Shown here: positions 2,926-58,819 of the stretch, one piece after another
How positions within the stretch are numbered: position 1 is the first letter of the stretch
Layout of the letters: every line of letters begins with the position of its first letter
Source of the DNA: Flavobacteriaceae bacterium
GTDB lineage: Bacteria; Bacteroidota; Bacteroidia; Flavobacteriales; Flavobacteriaceae
Length of the DNA: 62,006 nt
Assembly (NCBI GenBank): GCA_012959395.1
Contig: DUDG01000039.1
Coordinates: forward strand, 1-62,006
Direction: 5' to 3'
Notes under the pieces: model-generated
Databases searched by the model: none
Told to the model about the DNA's origin: nothing
Seen by the model: only the letters and a program-made list of their open reading frames with translations
Position numbers and translations under genes: made by a program

Positions 2926-4025
2926 TTATTTCTTTTAGCAGCTTTTTTAATAGATTTACTTTCTTTTTTGTCAGATTTCTTTTTCTTTTTATCTGATTTT
3001 ATTAAAAGCTTAAACTCTTTTTTTAATTTTTTCTTTTTTTCTTTTTCTTTTTTTATTTCCTCTTTATCAACAGGTATCTCATCTCTATACCAGTCTAGCC
3101 TTGTAGATAAACCAAAATTAAAATACAAATTTCTAGGAGTATTTTTAATATTGGTGCCTATACTAGAATCAAACTGATAATTTCTGTTTAATAAAAACGC
3201 AACACCAAATTTATAATAATTATCTGCGTATATATCATTTTTAATCATTTCGTATTCAATAAATGAAGACCACTTCGGGTTGTTGTAATTATGAGTTAGT
3301 GTAGTTATATGGTTTAAAATAGGATTTTTATCTCCTATTCTATCTAGGGTTATATTGTTAACCAAGACCCATTTTCCGATAAAATGATTTTGAGTTATTA
3401 TACTAGCTTTTGGGCTTATTACATTTTCTGTCATTTTCCAATTAGCCTTATTAAAAAGACTATGATTAAAAATATTGTATTCTGCACTTTTTTTAATAGA
3501 AGTGAAAGGATCATCGTAACTGTATCCGTTTTTTGGAATATAATTAACTCCAGCATAGACAGATAATGCGGGAATAAAATCAACTAATCTAATTATTCTA
3601 TTTTTTTTCCAGCTTAACAAGCTTACGCTATGCCATTTTTTATTTTTAAAAGGATCAAACACAAGATATTTAAACCCTAATGTTTGTTTGTTTAAAAATT
3701 TTTCTTCTATTACATCTTCACTTATAAATTTGTTTATGCTTTTATTTTGATTGTATGTCCCATTAATTATCACTTCTAATTTATTTTTCAAAAATCCATA
3801 ACGAATGATATAATTAAGTTGAGTTTCATTAATGGTTGAATTCTTAAAGTTTACATGACTTAGGTCACTTATTTTACCTCCAATTTCAAATTGAAGAACG
3901 TTTTTGCCTACAGCAAAAGCTCCTTGTGAAGTACCAGGTCTGTTAGAATTTATAGTTTCCGTGTATTGAGAAAATCCTTTAAAACTTAACAGTAAACATA
4001 ATGTTAATATGTATTGCAATTTCAT
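2922..4025 (-). CDS. Outer-membrane beta-barrel protein (phenol MetA-pathway transporter-like) with lysine-rich tail
   Basis: A signal peptide (MKLQYILTLCLLLSFKGFSQ) is followed by ETINSNRPGTSQGAFAVGKN, the typical opening of the Bacteroidota family related to the MetA-pathway phenol degradation transporters. The middle has alternating aromatic and polar strands as in a beta barrel. The last 45 residues or so are unusual: they are mostly Lys, Glu and Ser, with runs such as KKEKEKKKKLKKEFK and KSDKKKKKSDKKESK, and the barrel-like part ends just before them. Substrate is unknown. It is the first gene of a probable transcript leading through the acyltransferase-like gene to mnmE. Confidence 0.68.
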   Translation of the reverse strand: MKLQYILTLCLLLSFKGFSQYTETINSNRPGTSQGAFAVGKNVLQFEIGGKISDLSHVNFKNSTINETQLNYIIRYGFLKNKLEVIINGTYNQNKSINKFISEDVIEEKFLNKQTLGFKYLVFDPFKNKKWHSVSLLSWKKNRIIRLVDFIPALSVYAGVNYIPKNGYSYDDPFTSIKKSAEYNIFNHSLFNKANWKMTENVISPKASIITQNHFIGKWVLVNNITLDRIGDKNPILNHITTLTHNYNNPKWSSFIEYEMIKNDIYADNYYKFGVAFLLNRNYQFDSSIGTNIKNTPRNLYFNFGLSTRLDWYRDEIPVDKEEIKKEKEKKKKLKKEFKLLIKSDKKKKKSDKKESKSIKKAAKRNK

Positions 4026-50343: not shown

Positions 50344-51162
50344 ATGGAAAAATTAAACAGAATTGGATTGCCTATTGTAATATTAGTAATGCTCACATTT
50401 GTTGGCCTTATGAAATCAATAGTAAACATTGGTTATGGTGAAGCAGGAGTATTATTTAGAACTCTTGGCGGAGGTGTTGTGACGGATGAAGCTCCTATGG
50501 GGGAAGGTCTTAATTTTATACTCCCTTGGAATAAAGTATACATATACAATATTAAACAACAAGAGGTTTTTGAAAGTCAAATGCAGGTATTGTCTTCAAA
50601 TGGTTTAGAGATTTCACTTGATGTTTCTGTATTATATCAGCCACAATCTAATAAGCTAGGTTTATTACACCAAACTAAAGGAACTAACTATTTAGATGTA
50701 GTTCTAGTACCATCAATTAGAGCAGTAGCTAGAAGTGTTGTCGGAAGATACACACCAGAACAATTATATTCTACTAAAAGGGATGCTATTCAAGATGAAA
50801 TCTATGATGAGCTTAAAGAGGGGGTACAGGAACAATTTGTTCAGATTAATGCTGTTTTAGTAAGAGATGTTACTCTTCCTCAAACGATTAAACAAGCAAT
50901 TGAAAGAAAGCTTAGTCAGGAACAAATGTCTCTTGAATATGAATTTAAACTTGAATCAGCTAGAAAAGAAGCTGAAAAAGTAAGAATTGATGCTCAAGGT
51001 AAAGCAGATGCAAATAGAATATTAAATTCATCTCTAACTAGCAATATTTTAAGAGACAAAGGAATTGAAGCTACATTAAAATTAGCTGAATCACCTAACT
51101 CAAAAGTTATTATAATTGGCAGTGGTAAAGATGGACTTCCTATAATTTTAGGAAATCAATAA
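50344..51162 (+). CDS. Prohibitin-like SPFH-domain membrane protein
   Basis: The 272-residue protein has an N-terminal membrane anchor (about 11-28), followed by an SPFH domain: GYGEAGVLFRTLGGGVV, GEGLNFILPWNKVYIYNIKQ, LDVSVLYQPQSNKLG and VGRYTPEQLYSTKRDAIQDE. A coiled coil rich in Glu, Lys and Ala follows (about 190-240). Such proteins form large rings on membranes and influence proteases or membrane domains. Its partner is not evident. It ends 24 bases before the histidine leader peptide, with no strong terminator between, so the his operon promoter must lie within about 25 bases. Confidence 0.9.
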   Translation: MEKLNRIGLPIVILVMLTFVGLMKSIVNIGYGEAGVLFRTLGGGVVTDEAPMGEGLNFILPWNKVYIYNIKQQEVFESQMQVLSSNGLEISLDVSVLYQPQSNKLGLLHQTKGTNYLDVVLVPSIRAVARSVVGRYTPEQLYSTKRDAIQDEIYDELKEGVQEQFVQINAVLVRDVTLPQTIKQAIERKLSQEQMSLEYEFKLESARKEAEKVRIDAQGKADANRILNSSLTSNILRDKGIEATLKLAESPNSKVIIIGSGKDGLPIILGNQ

Positions 51163-51169
51163 TTTTATA

Positions 51170-51177
51170 TATATTCG
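51170..51177 (+). promoter_or_regulatory. Probable -7 element of the histidine operon
   Basis: TATATTCG matches TAnnTTTG in seven of eight positions and lies nine bases before the leader-peptide ATG. No good TTG is seen 17-23 bases upstream, so the element is tentative, but a promoter is expected here because the attenuator follows at once. Confidence 0.42.
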
Positions 51178-51186
51178 CACCTTTAA

Positions 51187-51243
51187 ATGAAATTTACTCA
51201 TAACATACATCGTCATTTATACTTCCTCAAACGAGTGATGTGA
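51187..51243 (+). CDS. Histidine operon leader peptide, 18 residues
   Basis: A short open frame encodes MKFTHNIHRHLYFLKRVM and ends in TGA. Three His residues (5, 8, 10; codons at 51199, 51208 and 51214) fall within six residues, far above the frequency in ordinary proteins of this window. The frame lies between a probable promoter and a strong hairpin terminator in front of hisG. A translating ribosome would pause here when charged His-tRNA is scarce. It is too short to be listed by usual gene finders, so its reading rests on the His codons and the RNA pairing described for the attenuator. Confidence 0.75.
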   Translation: MKFTHNIHRHLYFLKRVM

Positions 51244-51299
51244 TGATATTGTTGTATTATTATATAAGCCCGTTTGTTAATTCAAACGGGTTTTTTTTT
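51227..51299 (+). terminator. Histidine attenuator: antiterminator segment and intrinsic terminator
   Basis: CCCGTTTG (51269-51276) and CAAACGGG (51283-51290) form a perfect eight-pair stem with loop TTAATT, followed by nine T: a strong intrinsic terminator 22 bases before hisG. The upstream TCAAACG at 51227-51233 repeats the sequence 51282-51288, so CAAACG of either copy can pair with CGTTTG (51271-51276). Pairing of the upstream copy would form an antiterminator. The upstream copy starts 11 bases past the last His codon and is covered by a ribosome at the stop codon (51241-51243), as expected for attenuation. Confidence 0.82.
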
Positions 51300-51321
51300 G
51301 TTAAAAATTTAAACATATACA

Positions 51322-52179
51322 ATGCAAAGAATTAAAATTGCTATTCAAAAATCAGGAAGATTAAATGAAGAATCATTAAGTCTATTAAAGAAGTGTGGTA
51401 TTAATATTGACAATTATAAAGACCAGTTAAAAGCATCTTCTGTTAATTTTCCGATTGATGTTTTTTTTCTTAGAAATAGTGATATCCCTCAGTATATAAT
51501 TGATGGAATAGTTGATGTGGCTATAATTGGAGAAAACTTAATAATAGAAAATGATAATAAAATTGATATTATTGAAAGATTAGGTTTTTCTAAGTGTAAA
51601 GTTTCTATTGCAGTTCCTAATAAGATGGAATTTAATTCTATTATGGATTTAAATGATCTTAAAATTGCTACTTCTTATCCAAATACCTTAAATAATTTTC
51701 TAAATAAAGAATCTATAAAAGCAAGAACTCACGTTATTAATGGGTCTGTTGAAATTGCACCTAATATTGGTCTTTCTGATGCAATTTGTGATATAGTTTC
51801 TAGCGGAAGCACTCTATATAAAAATAATTTAAAAGAAGTTTATGTAATACATTATTCTGAAGCAGTTTTAGCTGTAAGTAACACAATTGATAAAAAATCT
51901 AATGAGTTACTAGAAAAATTACTTTTTAGAATAAAGGCAGTATTAAAAGCAAAAAAATCTAAATATATACTCTTAAATGCTCCAAATGAGAAAATTAATA
52001 CTATTTCAAAAATACTACCTGTTCTTAAGAGCCCAACTGTTTTACCTTTAAATCAAAAAGGCTGGAGTTCGTTGCATTCGGTTATTGAAGAAGATACATT
52101 TTGGGAAGTGATAGATAAGATTAAAGAAGCTGGTGCTGAGGATATTTTAGTTTGTCCAATTGAAAAAATGGTTTTATAA
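51322..52179 (+). CDS. hisG: ATP phosphoribosyltransferase, long form
   Basis: HisG starts histidine synthesis by joining ATP and PRPP and is normally feedback-inhibited by histidine. At 285 residues this is the long, self-sufficient form, which does not need HisZ. MQRIKIAIQKSGRLNEESLS opens the protein; DVAIIGENLI, SDAICDIVSSGSTLYKNNL (PRPP-binding) follow, and the last 75 residues form the ACT-like regulatory domain. It is the first gene of the eight-gene operon behind the attenuator. hisD overlaps its stop by one base. Confidence 0.97.
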   Translation: MQRIKIAIQKSGRLNEESLSLLKKCGINIDNYKDQLKASSVNFPIDVFFLRNSDIPQYIIDGIVDVAIIGENLIIENDNKIDIIERLGFSKCKVSIAVPNKMEFNSIMDLNDLKIATSYPNTLNNFLNKESIKARTHVINGSVEIAPNIGLSDAICDIVSSGSTLYKNNLKEVYVIHYSEAVLAVSNTIDKKSNELLEKLLFRIKAVLKAKKSKYILLNAPNEKINTISKILPVLKSPTVLPLNQKGWSSLHSVIEEDTFWEVIDKIKEAGAEDILVCPIEKMVL

Positions 52180-53465
52180 TGAATAAATATTATAATCCAC
52201 CTAAAAGTATTTGGAAAGAACTGATTAAAAGACCCACTATTAAAATTTCTTTTATAAATAAAACGATTGATTATATTTTTAATTTAGTCCAAAAAAAAGG
52301 GGATGATGCTATTAGATTATTAACTAAAGAATTTGATAAGATTGATTTAATAAATAATAAAGTAGAAGAATCTAAAATAGCTAATGCTATAAATTATGTT
52401 GATAATGAGTTGAAAAACTCTATTAATTTAGCTTTTGATAATATCTACAAATTTCATAAAAGTCAATTAACTAAATCTTGTAAAATAGAAACTAGCGCTG
52501 GGGTAGTTTGTTGGCAGGAGAAAAGACCAATTGAGTCTGTTGGTTTTTATATACCTGGAGGTTCTGCTCCTTTGTTTTCTACTATACTTATGCTAGCAAT
52601 TCCAGCAATGATAGCTGGTTGTAGAAAAATGATATTATGCACTCCACCTTCATCAGATGGAAGTGCTAACAACATTATTCTTTATGTTGCCAAACTTTGT
52701 AATATAAAAGACATTTACTTAGTCGGTGGCGCTCAAGCAATAGCCGCAATGACATTTGGGACTAGTTCAATTCCTAAAGTGAACAAAATTTTTGGTCCAG
52801 GCAATCAATATGTAACTGCTGCAAAAATTAAATCTATTCAATTTAACACTGCAATTGATATGCCTGCAGGTCCTAGTGAATTATTAGTACTTGCAGATCA
52901 ATATGCTAATCCTAGTTATATAGCATCAGATTTACTGTCTCAAGCGGAACATGGTCCAGATAGTCAAGTGATTTTTGTAAGTCTTTCAAAATCTTTGATT
53001 AATGATGTTGAAAAATGCATAAATGATCAAATTAAGAATTTAGACAGAATAGATTTTATTAATAACTCAATTTCAAATTCAAAGCTTATATTTTTTGATG
53101 ATGAAACTAAAGCAATTGACTTTATTAATTTATATGCACCAGAACATTATATAATTAATGTTAAAAATGAGTCCTTTTTTATAGACAATATTGTAAGTGC
53201 TGGCTCTGTGTTTATCGGAAATTACACTCCTGAAAGCGCTGGTGACTATGCGTCGGGTACAAATCATACTCTTCCGACAAATGGAAATGCAAAGCAATAT
53301 AGTGGTGTTAATTTAGATAGTTTTCAAAAGACTATTACATTTCAAAAAATATCAAAAACAGGTTTGTTGAATATTTCTAAAACTGTTGAAACTATGGCTC
53401 AAGCGGAAGGTTTAAAAGCTCATAAAAACGCAGTATCAATAAGGGTTAAAGATTTAAAAAATTAA
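52179..53465 (+). CDS. hisD: Histidinol dehydrogenase
   Basis: HisD carries out the last two oxidations to histidine with NAD and zinc. IESVGFYIPGGSAPLFSTIL, GGAQAIAAMTFGTSSIPKVN, IFGPGNQYVTAAK, DMPAGPSELLVLAD and SQAEHGPDSQ are family motifs, with zinc ligands Gln and His in SQAEHG and Asp/His near the C-terminus (DYASGTNHTLPTNG). The 428 residues are normal in length. It overlaps hisG by one base and precedes hisC by one base. Confidence 0.97.
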   Translation: MNKYYNPPKSIWKELIKRPTIKISFINKTIDYIFNLVQKKGDDAIRLLTKEFDKIDLINNKVEESKIANAINYVDNELKNSINLAFDNIYKFHKSQLTKSCKIETSAGVVCWQEKRPIESVGFYIPGGSAPLFSTILMLAIPAMIAGCRKMILCTPPSSDGSANNIILYVAKLCNIKDIYLVGGAQAIAAMTFGTSSIPKVNKIFGPGNQYVTAAKIKSIQFNTAIDMPAGPSELLVLADQYANPSYIASDLLSQAEHGPDSQVIFVSLSKSLINDVEKCINDQIKNLDRIDFINNSISNSKLIFFDDETKAIDFINLYAPEHYIINVKNESFFIDNIVSAGSVFIGNYTPESAGDYASGTNHTLPTNGNAKQYSGVNLDSFQKTITFQKISKTGLLNISKTVETMAQAEGLKAHKNAVSIRVKDLKN

Positions 53466-53466
53466 T

Positions 53467-54504
53467 ATGAAAATAGATACTCTTGTTAGAGATAATATTA
53501 AAAAAATGTCTTCATATTCATCCGCTAGAGATGATTATAAGAATGGGTATGATGAAAATTTAATTTATTTAGATGCTAATGAGTCTCCTTTTGAGAATGG
53601 AATTAATAGATATCCAAACAATAAGCATAATGATTTAAAGACTGTTGTTTCTAAAATTAAAAACATTGAAAAGGATCAAGTTGTTTTTGGAAACGGAACT
53701 GATGAAATTCTAGATTTAATTGTTCGTGTTTTTTGTAATCCAAATGAAGATAAAATAATTACTCTTCCTCCAACTTATGGAATGTATGATGTCATTGCTA
53801 AGACTAATAGTGTTGAGAATATTGAGATCCCATTAAAGAATAATTTTTCAATTGATAAAAATAAAATATTGAGTTTAAGTTCAGTTAAGACTAAGGTTTT
53901 ATTCTTGTGCTCTCCAAATAACCCTACTGGAAATTCATTCGATATCAATGATTTAAACGATCTAATTAAAGACTTTAAGGGGATTGTTGTTGTTGATGAA
54001 GCTTATATAGATTTTTCATCACAAAAATCTCTAATTAGTCTTATAGATAAGCATGATAATTTAATAATTACTCAAACTATGTCTAAGGCTTATGGAATGG
54101 CAGGCATTAGGCTAGGGATGGGGTTTTCAAATAAAAATATTATTAGTTACATAAACAAAATCAAAACCCCTTATAATGTAAATACACTTACTGAAAACAA
54201 AGTTCTTAAAGAGTTAAGTAAAACTGATGAACTTAAAAATAACATCAGTCTAATTTTAAATCAGAGGAAAGTATTAATATCCTCTTTAGAAAAACTGGAT
54301 TTTGTTCAAAAAACATACAAATCAGACGCAAATTTCCTTCTTGTTAAAGTTGATAATGCGGATTTGAGATACAATCAGTTATTAAAGAAAGGTATTGTTG
54401 TTAGAAACAGATCAAATCAATATTTGTGTCAAAACTGTTTAAGAATTACTATTGGAACAGGAGAAGAAAATAAAATATTCATAAAAACACTTAACGAATT
54501 ATGA
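53467..54504 (+). CDS. hisC: Histidinol-phosphate aminotransferase
   Basis: HisC transfers an amino group from glutamate to imidazole acetol phosphate, using PLP. YLDANESPFENGINRYPN, FGNGTDEILDLIVRVF, LCSPNNPTGNSFD, VVVDEAYIDFS and the PLP Lys in TQTMSKAYGMAGIRLG identify it, and the substrate-binding Arg is in CLRITIGT. At 345 residues it is full length. The operon position between hisD and hisB supports hisC over other class I aminotransferases. It overlaps hisB by four bases. Confidence 0.96.
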   Translation: MKIDTLVRDNIKKMSSYSSARDDYKNGYDENLIYLDANESPFENGINRYPNNKHNDLKTVVSKIKNIEKDQVVFGNGTDEILDLIVRVFCNPNEDKIITLPPTYGMYDVIAKTNSVENIEIPLKNNFSIDKNKILSLSSVKTKVLFLCSPNNPTGNSFDINDLNDLIKDFKGIVVVDEAYIDFSSQKSLISLIDKHDNLIITQTMSKAYGMAGIRLGMGFSNKNIISYINKIKTPYNVNTLTENKVLKELSKTDELKNNISLILNQRKVLISSLEKLDFVQKTYKSDANFLLVKVDNADLRYNQLLKKGIVVRNRSNQYLCQNCLRITIGTGEENKIFIKTLNEL

Positions 54505-55613
54505 AAAAGATTCTTTTTATAGATAGAGATGGAACTTTAGTGGAAGAGCCTGAGCTAGATAAACAATTAGATAGTTTTGAGAAATTATGTTTTTTTCCAG
54601 GTGTGTTTAAGTATTTAAACAAAATCAGTAAAGAATTAGATTTTGAACTAGTAATGGTTACAAATCAAGATGGTTTGGGAACAGATTCTTTTCCTGAAAT
54701 AACTTTTTGGCCTGCTCAAAATTTTATTATTAATTCTTTTAAAAATGAAGAAGTTGGGTTTTTTAAAATACACATTGACAAGAGTTTTGAAAACGAAAAC
54801 TCTAATTACAGAAAACCAAGAACAGGAATGTTAACAGAGTATATTGAGGATATCAATATTGATATGCAGAATTCTTTTGTTATAGGAGATAGAATGTTTG
54901 ATATGCAATTAGCCAAAAACTTGAATTGCTCAGGTATTTTTTATAATGGTTCAGACCTTGATGATTCTTTAAATGATATTGTAAAACTTAAAACAGATTC
55001 TTGGAAATCTGTATATGAATACTTGAGTGGATTGAATAGATATTCTACGTTTGAAAGAATTACAAATGAAACGAAAATTAATATTGAACTTGATTTAGAC
55101 GGAACAGGAAAAAGTAATATTGATACTGGTCTTTCATTTTTTGATCACATGTTGGATCAGCTTTCAAAACACTCACTGGTAGATTTAAACATTAAAGTTG
55201 ATGGAGACTTGAATGTTGATGAGCATCATACTATTGAAGACACGGCAATTGCTCTTGGAGAATCTTTTTCTGCTTTACTTGGAAAGAAAATAGGAATCGA
55301 AAGATATGCTTTTTCGCTTCCTATGGACGACTGTTTAGCTCAAGTGGCAATAGATTTTGGAGGAAGAAGTTGGCTTGTTTGGGATGCTGAATTTAAAAGA
55401 GAGAAGATAGGGGATGTTCCAACTGAAATGTTCTATCATTTTTTTAAATCGTTTTGTGACGGTGCTAAATTAAATGCAAACATAAAAGTAGAAGGAACTA
55501 ATGAGCATCATAAAATAGAATCAATATTCAAAGCTTTTGCTAAATGTATTAAAAGTGCTATTAGTAAAAATCAGGATAAATTAATATTGCCATCCACTAA
55601 AGGAGTATTGTAA
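54501..55613 (+). CDS. hisB: Bifunctional histidinol-phosphatase / imidazoleglycerol-phosphate dehydratase
   Basis: The N-terminal HAD phosphatase (about 1-165) has Asp8 and Asp10 in FIDRDGTLVEEP and the Cys/His-free metal segment YRKPRTGML with VIGDRMFDMQLAKNL. The C-terminal dehydratase (about 180-370) shows GLSFFDHMLDQLSKHS, DEHHTIEDTAIALGE, the second metal site segment FYHFFKSF and NEHHKIESIFKAFAK. The fusion carries out steps six and eight of the pathway, as in E. coli, and is common in Bacteroidota. It overlaps hisC by four bases and hisH by one. Confidence 0.97.
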   Translation: MKKILFIDRDGTLVEEPELDKQLDSFEKLCFFPGVFKYLNKISKELDFELVMVTNQDGLGTDSFPEITFWPAQNFIINSFKNEEVGFFKIHIDKSFENENSNYRKPRTGMLTEYIEDINIDMQNSFVIGDRMFDMQLAKNLNCSGIFYNGSDLDDSLNDIVKLKTDSWKSVYEYLSGLNRYSTFERITNETKINIELDLDGTGKSNIDTGLSFFDHMLDQLSKHSLVDLNIKVDGDLNVDEHHTIEDTAIALGESFSALLGKKIGIERYAFSLPMDDCLAQVAIDFGGRSWLVWDAEFKREKIGDVPTEMFYHFFKSFCDGAKLNANIKVEGTNEHHKIESIFKAFAKCIKSAISKNQDKLILPSTKGVL

Positions 55614-56194
55614 TGAGAATAGCTATAATTGATTATGGGGCTGGGAACACTCAAAGCGTGAAATACGCTTTAAAAAGACTTGGTTGTAAAGGAATTTTGA
55701 CTTCGGATAAAGAAATTATATCAAGTTCAGATAAAATTATTTTTCCAGGTGTAGGGCAGGCTAGTAGTGCCATGAAAAAACTTAAATCTGTAGGTTTAGA
55801 TTTACTTATACCTAGTTTAAAACAACCAGTGCTAGGTATATGTTTAGGTATGCAATTGATGTGTGACTTTTCAGAGGAAGGAGATACAGATTGTTTAAAA
55901 ATATTTAATTCAAAAGTAAAGAGGTTTGATAATTCACTTAAGGTTCCTCAAATTGGATGGAACACTCTTTTTAATTTAAAAACTAGCTTATTTGATTCAA
56001 TTAAGGAAAAGGAATACATGTATTTAGTTCACAGTTATTTTGTTCCCGTTATTCCAAAAACTATTGCAACTTCTAAATATGGAATCTCTTACAGTACAGC
56101 TATTAAAAAAAACAATTTCACAGGAGTACAATTTCATCCTGAAAAGAGTGGAAGCAAGGGTGAGATTTTACTTAAAAATTTTATAACTAATTAA
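55613..56194 (+). CDS. hisH: Imidazole glycerol phosphate synthase, glutaminase subunit
   Basis: HisH releases ammonia from glutamine for HisF. The class I amidotransferase nucleophile is Cys77 in [12 protein letters not shown], and the His-Glu pair lies in [10 protein letters not shown] near the C-terminus. The oxyanion P-G-V-G motif at 45-48 is present. The 193 residues are complete. The protein works with HisF, encoded two genes downstream with hisA in between, the typical order in this phylum. Confidence 0.97.
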
Positions 56195-56196
56195 TA

Positions 56197-56919
56197 ATGA
56201 GAATAATTCCAGCTATTGATATTATTGAAGGAAAATGCGTAAGGTTATCGCAAGGTGATTACAGTAAAAAAACTGTATACAGCTCTAGTCCATTTGAAAT
56301 GGCCCAACGATTTGAAGATCATGGTATTAATTTTCTTCATTTAGTTGATCTAGACGGCGCGAAATCAAGTAAGATTATAAATTACAAGATTCTTGAGCAA
56401 ATCGCTCTAAAAACAGCTTTAAATGTTGATTTTGGTGGTGGATTAAAATCAGTTGAGGATGTAAGGATAGCATTTGAATCAGGTGCATCTCAGGTTACAC
56501 TTGGAAGTATTGCTGTCTCAGATCCTGATACGTTTATTGAGTTGTTTCAAAATTACGGATCTGAAAAGATAATTTTAGGAGCTGATTTTTTGAATAATAA
56601 AATAAAAACAAACGGATGGTTGAATGATTCTGGAAATGATCTTATGGATTTTTTAGATTATCATGTCTCAAAAGGTGTAAAGTATGTTATTCCAACGGAT
56701 ATTTCTAAAGACGGAATGCTTAAGGGACCTTCAGTAGACTCTTATAAAAATATCTTAAAGTCATTCAAAGATGTTTGTTTGATTGCTTCGGGTGGAATAT
56801 CAGATATTAAAGATTTAGAGGATTTAAAAGAAATTGGTTGTGAAGGTGCTATTCTTGGAAAAGCGATTTATGAAAACAAGATAGAATTAAAAAGTTTAAT
56901 GAATTTTATAAATACATAA
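56197..56919 (+). CDS. hisA: Phosphoribosylformimino-AICAR-phosphate isomerase
   Basis: HisA is a (beta/alpha)8 barrel that rearranges ProFAR to PRFAR. The start [20 protein letters not shown] carries the catalytic Asp8, [12 protein letters not shown] follows, and the phosphate-binding segments are [12 protein letters not shown] and [13 protein letters not shown]. The second catalytic Asp lies in [16 protein letters not shown]. It is two bases after hisH and overlaps hisF by one base. At 240 residues it is the normal size. It resembles hisF in fold but has the A-I-D-I-I-E-G opening. Confidence 0.96.
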
Positions 56920-57674
56920 TGCTGGCCAAAAGAATAATTCCATGTCTTGATATAAAAGACTCTAGAACCGTAAAGGGTGTTAATTTTGTAGATCTTGTAG
57001 ATGCTGGAGATCCAGTTGAGCTTGCTAAATATTACTCTGAAAACGGAGCAGACGAGCTTGTGTTTTTAGATATAACCGCTACAAAAGAGGACAGAAGGAC
57101 ATTTGCTAAGTTAGTTGATGAAATTTCAGAGAATATTAATATTCCTTTTACAGTTGGAGGAGGGATTAAAACTAAGGAGGATGTAGAAATTCTTTTGAAA
57201 AATGGAGCAGATAAGGTTTCTATTAACAGCTATGCTGTATCAAATCCTGATTTTATTAATGAATTAGCTTCTAATTTTGGAAGTCAGTGTATTGTTGTGG
57301 CAATTGATGCAAAGTTTATTGATAATGACTGGTACGTGTACTTAGTTGGCGGTAGAATTAAAACAGAGATTAAATTATTTAACTGGGCTAAAGAAGTAGA
57401 GAAGAGGGGAGCGGGAGAAATTTTATTTACCTCAATGGATCATGATGGCACTAAAAATGGATTTGCTTGTAAAGCACTTGAGGAATTATCACAGAAAGTG
57501 AATATCCCTATTATTGCTTCTGGTGGAGCGGGAAAAATCAAACATTTTAATGAAGTTTTTAAATCAGGTAATATTGATGCTGTACTTGCTGCAAGTGTAT
57601 TTCATTTTAATGAAATTGGATTAAAAGAACTTAAAATAGAATTAAATAATAATAATATACCTATACGATTATGA
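56919..57674 (+). CDS. hisF: Imidazole glycerol phosphate synthase, cyclase subunit
   Basis: HisF uses ammonia from HisH to form imidazole glycerol phosphate and AICAR. The catalytic Asp11 is in [20 protein letters not shown] and the second Asp in [14 protein letters not shown]; phosphate sites are [12 protein letters not shown] and [12 protein letters not shown]. The 251-residue barrel is complete. It overlaps hisA by one base and hisIE by four bases. Confidence 0.97.
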
Positions 57675-58285
57675 ATTTAGATTTTAATAAAAACAAAGAC
57701 GGGTTAATACCAGCTATTATACAAGATAATAAAACCTCTAAAGTATTGATGCTAGGTTATTTAAATAAAGAATCTTTAAGTTTAACTTTAAGTTCTGAAA
57801 CTGTTTATTTTTACAGTAGAACTAAGCAAAGAATTTGGAAAAAAGGCGAAGAAAGTGGTAATGAATTAAAGCTTGTGTCAATCAAGGAAGATTGTGATAA
57901 TGATACGGTTCTTATTAAAGTGAATCCTTTAGGACCGGTTTGTCATACTGGAGAAGACACATGTTTTAATGAAGAAAATCAATCTATAGATTTTATTGAC
58001 GAGATAGAGAGTGTTATTGAAGATAGAAAAAACAATCCCATAGATTCTAGTTATGTATCTAGCTTATTTAAAAAAGGAACCAACAAGATTGCTCAAAAAG
58101 TTGGAGAAGAAGCTATAGAGTTGGTTATTGAATCAAAAGATGACGATAATGAAAGATTATTCTTAAATGAAGGTGCAGACCTATTATTTCATTATTTAAT
58201 TCTTCTTCAAGAAAAAGGATATAAACTTAATGATGTTTTAAATGTTTTAAAATTAAGAAATAAATCTACTACCAAATTAAAATAG
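57671..58285 (+). CDS. hisIE: Bifunctional phosphoribosyl-AMP cyclohydrolase / phosphoribosyl-ATP pyrophosphatase
   Basis: The HisI part (about 1-105) has [39 protein letters not shown] and the metal-binding segment [18 protein letters not shown]-like region with its Cys residues. The HisE part (about 110-204) has [20 protein letters not shown] and [16 protein letters not shown], the nucleotide pyrophosphatase helices. The fusion catalyses steps two and three. It is the last gene of the operon and no hairpin followed by T lies behind it in the 87 bases before the cold-shock-domain gene, so read-through is possible. Confidence 0.96.
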
Positions 58286-58315: not shown

Positions 58316-58373
58316 TATATAATTTTAATATAAACTATAAAACATGTATTTTTACGGATATTAAAATTATATA
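58316..58373 (+). promoter_or_regulatory. Perfect 16-base A/T-only inverted repeat over the cold-shock-domain start codon
   Basis: TATATAATTTTAATAT (58316-58331) and ATATTAAAATTATATA (58358-58373) are exact reverse complements with a 26-base loop; the right arm ends on the A of the ATG. In an mRNA carrying both arms the start codon would be closed by 16 A-U pairs. A TATTTTTAC stretch in the loop (58347-58355) resembles a -7 element; a transcript starting there would contain only the right arm. The repeat could therefore be an RNA switch on read-through mRNA, a DNA operator, or both. Confidence 0.55.
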
Positions 58374-58819
58374 TGGCTAAATCGCAACAAACTTTTAACA
58401 AACTAGAAAAGGAAAAGAAGCGTAAAAAGAAACGTGAAGACAAAATAAAGAAGATGTTAGCTCGTAAAGAAGCTAAAGAAAGTGGAGAACTTGTTACTAA
58501 CGAGTTTGTTTATGTTGATTATAACGGAAATTTCACAGACACGAAACCAGATCCTTCAGAAAAAAAGAAAATCATTGCAAGTAACATCGTTTTAGGAGTT
58601 CCTAAGCGAGAAGATGTTAAAACGGAGGGTTTTATTGGTAAAGTTAATTTCTTTGATCATTCAAAAGGTTTTGGGTTTATAATTGATCCAGAAAGCCAAG
58701 AAAAATATTTTGTACATATAAGTGAATGTATTGATGAGATTAATGAAGGAGATAAGGTTGAATTTGATATTATGAAGGGTGCCAAGGGAATGAATGCAGT
58801 AAAAGTCAAGAAGAAATAA
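58373..58819 (+). CDS. Cold-shock-domain protein with basic N-terminal extension
   Basis: The C-terminal 65 residues form a cold-shock domain: EGFIGKVNFFDHSKGFGFI with RNP1 KGFGFI, and KYFVHISECI with RNP2 YFVHIS. It binds single-stranded RNA or DNA. The first 35 residues are almost all Lys, Arg and Glu (KLEKEKKRKKKREDKIKKML), probably an RNA-binding helix, and the linker contains VYVDYNGNFTDTKPDPSEKK. The 148-residue form is common in Bacteroidota. Its start codon lies in the right arm of a perfect 16-base inverted repeat, suggesting control at transcription or translation. Confidence 0.88.
   Translation: MAKSQQTFNKLEKEKKRKKKREDKIKKMLARKEAKESGELVTNEFVYVDYNGNFTDTKPDPSEKKKIIASNIVLGVPKREDVKTEGFIGKVNFFDHSKGFGFIIDPESQEKYFVHISECIDEINEGDKVEFDIMKGAKGMNAVKVKKK

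Follow-up and report, generated by a model that had tools for sequence, protein, structure and literature searches.

The closest described system was reported in 2021 (PMC9723704): a structured 5′ element without an Rfam hit that precedes hisG in Flavobacterium psychrophilum and in further genera of the Flavobacteriaceae. The excerpted text of that paper also gives clues for leader-peptide attenuation upstream of amino-acid operons, and notes that promoters and translation starts of Bacteroidota differ from those of most bacteria. In a literature search for his attenuators in Bacteroidetes, Bacteroidota, Bacteroides or Flavobacterium, with thin coverage of subscription journals, only this paper was directly relevant. 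For B. thetaiotaomicron, leader-like small frames are mentioned in PMC7366714, and histidine is not mentioned in the excerpt of that source. The mechanism of the enterobacterial his attenuator is summarized in PMC9413887, which in the same excerpt describes some Firmicutes his leaders that carry runs of three to five His, together with a predicted terminator and antiterminator. Comparative predictions of amino-acid operon attenuators, his included, are attributed to Vitreschak et al. (2004; FEMS Microbiol Lett 234:357).

Here we analyzed a 62,006-nucleotide stretch (the window) of a draft flavobacterial genome of 1.49 Mb, 68% complete and in 46 contigs (G000). Its nearest named relatives are metagenome-assembled genomes titled Flavobacteriaceae, Bacteroidetes or Cryomorphaceae, among which the isolate names FRAM18 and MED-G65 suggest the sea. 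Positions 51187-51299 very probably constitute a ribosome-mediated transcription attenuator of the histidine operon, for which histidine-dependent termination is predicted. The basis is a leader frame, two mutually exclusive folds, recurrence and co-evolution in relatives, and a his operon behind them; from these we infer the transcription start, translation of the leader, ribosome stalling and the dependence of termination on histidine. A preliminary description of this DNA had already proposed ribosome-mediated his attenuation, which stands as the best reading and has gained comparative support; it needs correcting in three respects, as the switch is larger than three segments, the short, interrupted His run is local, and the phylum is not unexplored, given the structured hisG element and attenuation clues already present in the excerpted 2021 paper.

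The leader and its competing folds

The leader is an 18-codon frame, read from the sequence, that runs from the ATG at 51187 to the TGA at 51241-51243, with His at codons 5, 8 and 10 (Table 1). The features stated in the preliminary description were recovered in the sequence: an 18-codon frame with three His codons in six, 11 bases between the last His codon and the upstream CAAACG, two copies of TCAAACG (51227-51233 and 51282-51288), and a terminator stem followed by nine T, with core arms CCCGTTTG at 51269-51276 and CAAACGGG at 51283-51290. His codons are few and interrupted in the window species (three) and in its nearest relative, L003/L015 (two), and in both an Arg codon, CGT, stands between the last two. 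HHH or HHHH occurs in 7 of the 9 other leaders of the genus, and Flavobacterium leaders carry four or five His in a row; the short, interrupted run of the window leader is a local feature.

Table 1. Features of the his leader and operon, in positions of the window
Feature	Position	Strand	Basis
Putative -7 promoter element TATATTCG (consensus TAnnTTTG)	51170-51177	+	Sequence, one mismatch to consensus
Leader peptide frame MKFTHNIHRHLYFLKRVM, then stop	51187-51243	+	Sequence; His-rich frames at the same place in relatives
Regulatory His codons (51199, 51208, 51214)	51199-51216	+	Sequence; alignment with relatives
Alternative early hairpin, candidate pause/anti-antiterminator	51200-51255	+	Folding; pair counts; duplex test
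Predicted antiterminator hairpin	51228-51276	+	Folding; arm-swap test in relatives
Intrinsic terminator hairpin, core CCCGTTTG-TTAATT-CAAACGGG	51266-51293	+	Sequence, folding, terminator scan
Run of nine T after the core stem, the first three able to pair with 51266-51268	51291-51299	+	Sequence, terminator scan
hisG, first gene of the controlled operon	51322-52179	+	NCBIfam TIGR00070 above cut-off
hisD, hisC, hisB, hisH, hisA, hisF, hisIE	52179-58285	+	At least one NCBIfam match above cut-off each

The operon downstream, hisGDCBHAFIE, makes the amino acid encoded by the repeated leader codons. It is directly followed by a gene for a 148-aa cold-shock-domain protein (58373-58819), whose CspE/CspC-type NCBIfam matches are all below cut-off. 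Upstream of the leader lies a band-7/HflK-like gene (50344-51162), and behind it the putative -7 element, for which the excerpt of PMC9723704 gives a spacing of -12 to -5; the sequence is suggestive of a transcription start near 51182, which would leave a 5′ UTR of roughly 5 nt. A loose pattern recognized a -7-like box in 14 of the 15 close sequences (predicted 5′ UTR of 0-5 nt in 7 of the 14) and in 55 of 68 other sequences (at most 5 nt in 7 of the 55). Sigma-70-type promoter matches occurred at chance level (11 found, 11.2 expected).

The terminator hairpin is the sole terminator-like site between 50300 and 52200, where 0.4 would be expected from shuffles, and a stricter scan of both strands of the whole window returned it as the only terminator. 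The leader as a whole (51180-51299) folds with z = -4.6, none of 200 shuffles being as stable. The competing antiterminator is one hairpin of 20 pairs that contains the leader stop codon: its base joins CAAACG (51228-51233) to CGTTTG (51271-51276), followed by 51235-51236 with 51268-51269 and by a nested, AU-rich stem of 12 bp (51238-51249 with 51254-51265). According to folding, the two structures are of similar strength (-15.3 kcal/mol for the terminator, -16.5 kcal/mol for the antiterminator) and mutually exclusive. The three-segment switch of the preliminary description is thus retained in its CAAACG/CGTTTG pairing and revised in its size, since the TCAAACG-CGTTTG pairing it named makes up only the basal six pairs of the 20-pair antiterminator, and a further alternative hairpin occupies 51200-51255. 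Taken by itself in the window sequence, the short upstream pairing is at chance level, as shuffling the upstream piece gives equally good pairing in 244 of 1000 cases; the full hairpin (z = -5.2, 100 shuffles) and its conservation were therefore taken as the evidence instead.

The effect of a ribosome was modeled with an assumed footprint of 12 nt that begins at the codon in the A site. When this codon is any of the three His codons, the antiterminator reaches P = 0.99 in RNAs that end at 51276, 51282 or 51285; when it is the stop codon, the ribosome hides the 5′ arm of the antiterminator (by construction, P = 0.00), and the terminator folds. In longer leaders at equilibrium the terminator is favored in every state (P(3:4) = 1.00 at 51292 and 51299), so antitermination must be kinetic. 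Partial transcripts up to 51285 also fold into the antiterminator without any ribosome (P = 0.98-0.99). Classic attenuators terminate when the leader is untranslated; folding alone therefore does not explain termination of an untranslated leader here.

One candidate for that step is the early hairpin (-13.9), in which the His codons pair with bases around and after the stop codon, and which might prevent antiterminator formation in the untranslated leader. Its covariation score among the 15 close sequences was reached by 1 of 500 shuffles, a value that relatedness alone can give, and in a duplex test it was strong near the window and absent in many distant taxa. As a general feature, pairing of the His codons with the region after the stop was rejected, because only 38 of 82 regions had at most 10 of 200 shuffles as good and many distant ones had none.

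The position of the terminator bears on a different role for the leader frame, namely that it acts mainly in translation, by reinitiation or coupling to hisG, and not in termination. Short leader frames near genes may raise translation by reinitiation, as stated in the excerpt of PMC4833913; the leader stop codon, however, ends 78 nt before the hisG ATG, compared with the peak of 11-14 bp given there for Bacteroidetes, and a U-tailed terminator lies between the two. We consider this role extremely improbable, and attenuation of transcription is the reading retained below.

Recurrence of the leader in the genus, family and phylum

Aligning the region upstream of hisG in relatives, a check that the preliminary description had proposed, confirmed that the His codons and both arms recur. 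Within the genus, HisG was matched in 13 of 22 genomes, and a leader frame with at least two His was present in 10 of the 11 loci having upstream DNA, the window included. L004 and L005 are cut off upstream, and these two, L016 and L017 have less than 100 nt of upstream sequence; L014 is a 35%-identical HisG (G001) without a His frame. A further His leader lies at a contig end of G009 (L184). Among the named loci, which include Flavobacterium, Chryseobacterium, Marinifilum, Prolixibacteraceae and Marinilabiliaceae, 32 of 34 have more than 300 nt upstream, and 31 of these 32, all but L046 (titled Thermomicrobiales), carry a leader-type frame that contains two or more His. Because several named loci come from genomes that are also in the genus set, the genus and named sets are not independent.

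For the phylum, we used an even sample of genomes at least 90% complete, plus that of the window; 104 of 198 matched the window HisG at E <= 1e-30, and the hisG upstream regions of all 103 besides the window's were read for ATG frames of 8-40 codons with at least three, or at least four, of one residue in seven codons. At three or more, His led with 69 of 103 regions, followed by Leu (35) and Ile (30); at four or more, His was found in 59 of 103 and the next residue, Ile, in 12. No clear His frame of this kind was found in 34 of the 103 regions (e.g. L080, L082, L083, L086). The comparative set comprises 135 upstream regions, namely 32 chosen named or genus loci (L014 and L046 left out) and the 103 phylum regions; an ATG frame with three His in seven codons is lacking in 35, the 34 just mentioned and L003, with its two His. 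By our own rule, a terminator follows in 85 of the 100 His-frame regions and was not found in 15 (e.g. L104, L105, L108, L139, L141). Regions without a His frame or without a terminator may use translational control or another design.

A tandem arrangement was seen in Marinilabiliaceae JC017 (L045), where MSNNTHHHHHFILLHG and MNNFHLHIHHHSYHSG, two His leaders, lie about 280 to 40 nt before hisG; a terminator-like hairpin of its own stands behind each, and the pair may form a double attenuator in series.

These recurring codons also bear on whether the element could be a small-molecule or tRNA-sensing riboswitch of the T-box type, for which leader translation would be unneeded. In some Firmicutes and Actinobacteria, his genes are under T-box control, according to the excerpt of PMC9413887; against this reading, no Rfam 15 family, the T-box model included, scores at its gathering threshold or above, either in the window or in six relatives, and several His codons recurring in one short frame would fit translation better than a single specifier codon. 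A riboswitch is accordingly hardly credible as an explanation, and the translated leader remains the preferred one. Rfam matches below gathering in 51100-51400 (VrrA, anti-hemB, Trp_leader and others) were all well under their cut-offs and were rejected.

Conserved pairing between arms and additional copies

Pairing between the arms was compared in an 82-region set, obtained from the 100 His-frame regions by removing the 15 without a terminator and L093, L135 and L142, whose terminators are weak or doubtful. One genome may contribute more than once to the 135- and 82-region sets, but not to the 28 representatives, which were chosen by string similarity below 0.72 in place of a grouping of terminator arms into eight clusters that merged too much (there, own arms beat 20,000 of 20,000 permutations). 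Among the 28 representatives, the piece after the last His codon has a mean pairing energy of -14.0 kcal/mol with its own terminator arm and of -9.1 kcal/mol with swapped arms; none of 20,000 permutations was as good (z = -9.5), and the same result, 0 of 20,000, was obtained with the 22 representatives lacking CCGTTTG-type arms. The own arm was the best partner in 8 of the 28, leaving 20 in which it was not, and it was among the three best in 16. That own arms outperform swapped arms indicates that the pairing is kept while the letters change, as in Marinifilum, where CAGGTG pairs with CACCTG. Joint change of the paired segments, for which the preliminary description had proposed a test, is seen across the 28 dissimilar representatives and is not apparent within the closest 15 sequences. 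In those 15, which barely vary, pairing of the antiterminator holds in 88.7% of cells, compared with 29-52% when slid, with no excess of covariation: two pairs changed on both sides, and 215 of 500 shuffles were as good.

In the 82-region set, the terminator arm pairs upstream over at least six bases in 71 regions, and z <= -2 is reached in 43 of the 82. In 81 of 82, a ribosome at the stop codon would cover at least part of the upstream arm. This arm is clear of the last His codon in 47 and starts less than 12 nt from it in the other 35, in which stalling at that codon would mask part of the arm.

A covariance model was built from 42 leaders with related arms, with no hisG sequence included. 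It matched 54 of 60 family genomes at E <= 0.001 and 50 at E < 1e-6, these E-values being rough. Among the 30 best loci, the only ones checked in this respect, hisG lies within about 90 nt downstream in all; three of them (the window, G155 and G203) were in the training set. Within the genus, the genomes matched at E <= 1e-7 are the 12 that have an orthologous hisG and no others; 9 of these 12 contributed to the training set. Some of the weaker matches are look-alike terminators hit on both strands, and both strands were matched at L187 (G238); L185 and L189 gave no match to the leader/terminator pattern searched.

Extra copies were seen behind band-7 genes. In L182 (G017:C2:137500-142400), an orphan leader with two His codons lies at 1027-1138 behind such a gene with no adjacent his gene; hisG in the same locus has its own leader at about 3683-3785, with two frames, one on the opposite strand, between the orphan and hisG. 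The orphan arms, CAAACA and TGTTTG, represent a matched change on both arms. A second copy in G020 (L183) is also behind a band-7 gene, judged from its genes as read, and in G262 (L186) a similar terminator stands behind a band-7 gene, where none of the short ATG frames listed is a His frame.

Such arrangements would be in line with a terminator that simply ended transcription of the upstream band-7/HflK-like gene, the His-rich frame being incidental: the window terminator lies after this gene with no second candidate nearby, as does the G262 terminator that has no His frame, and the G017 copy adjoins no his gene. On the other side, no other residue reaches the frequency of His in the phylum sample, the upstream and terminator arms co-evolve, and the 30 best model matches all precede hisG. 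An incidental His frame is thus very unlikely, and the terminator may serve both the end of the band-7 gene and his attenuation.

Proposed mechanism and relation to known his leaders

Under ribosome-mediated attenuation, RNA polymerase would start near 51182, followed by a ribosome translating the 18-codon leader. A shortage of charged His-tRNA would stall this ribosome at the His codons (51199-51216) and leave the RNA from 51228 onward free, so that the antiterminator could fold once the 5′ arm of the terminator emerges and polymerase would continue into hisG. With ample histidine, the ribosome would reach the stop codon at 51241, within the 5′ half of the antiterminator; from this position it would prevent the antiterminator from forming, and the terminator would fold and end transcription near 51299.

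By sequence comparison, it is well supported that this his attenuator element is common to many relatives and much of Bacteroidota, its mechanism being a well-known one already glimpsed in the phylum. Control of the histidine operon would thereby probably be explained in an uncultured flavobacterial genus and in much of the phylum, and the covariance model is ready for an element without a match in Rfam 15. A broader proposal, which we advance tentatively and regard as rather doubtful at present, is that Bacteroidota have their own phylum-wide family of his attenuators, distinct from RF00514 in having one long antiterminator that contains the stop codon, and that some small-genome lineages near the window, with predicted starts 0-5 nt from the ATG, use near-leaderless, non-Shine-Dalgarno attenuation. 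Near-leaderless attenuation, if true, would imply tight transcription-translation coupling in Bacteroidota. Leader-peptide attenuation needs a ribosome close behind RNA polymerase, so a working his attenuator would itself be evidence for such coupling in this phylum, which would become testable in laboratory Flavobacterium.

The element shares with that of PMC9723704 the gene, the bacterial family, a structured leader and the lack of an Rfam match; section 19 of that paper gives no His-leader anatomy or alternative folds for hisG, and the present case comes from a draft genome outside Flavobacterium and has a shorter leader. The Firmicutes His leaders belong to a different phylum and are likened to it by the excerpted description of leader and predicted folds. 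The enterobacterial model RF00514 (His_leader) has no gathering match in the window and is absent among the 18 matches at E <= 5 for 51100-51400. The abstract of the 2004 comparative study is said to mention Bacteroidetes/Chlorobi, and priority would be older still if that study covers his leaders of this group. The enterobacterial his leader has seven consecutive His codons and more alternating segments, whereas in the present leader the three His codons are not consecutive and a single long antiterminator takes in the stop codon. In the excerpted summary of the enterobacterial system, the parts common to both are a leader peptide with His codons, a terminator, an antiterminator and the his operon that they precede.
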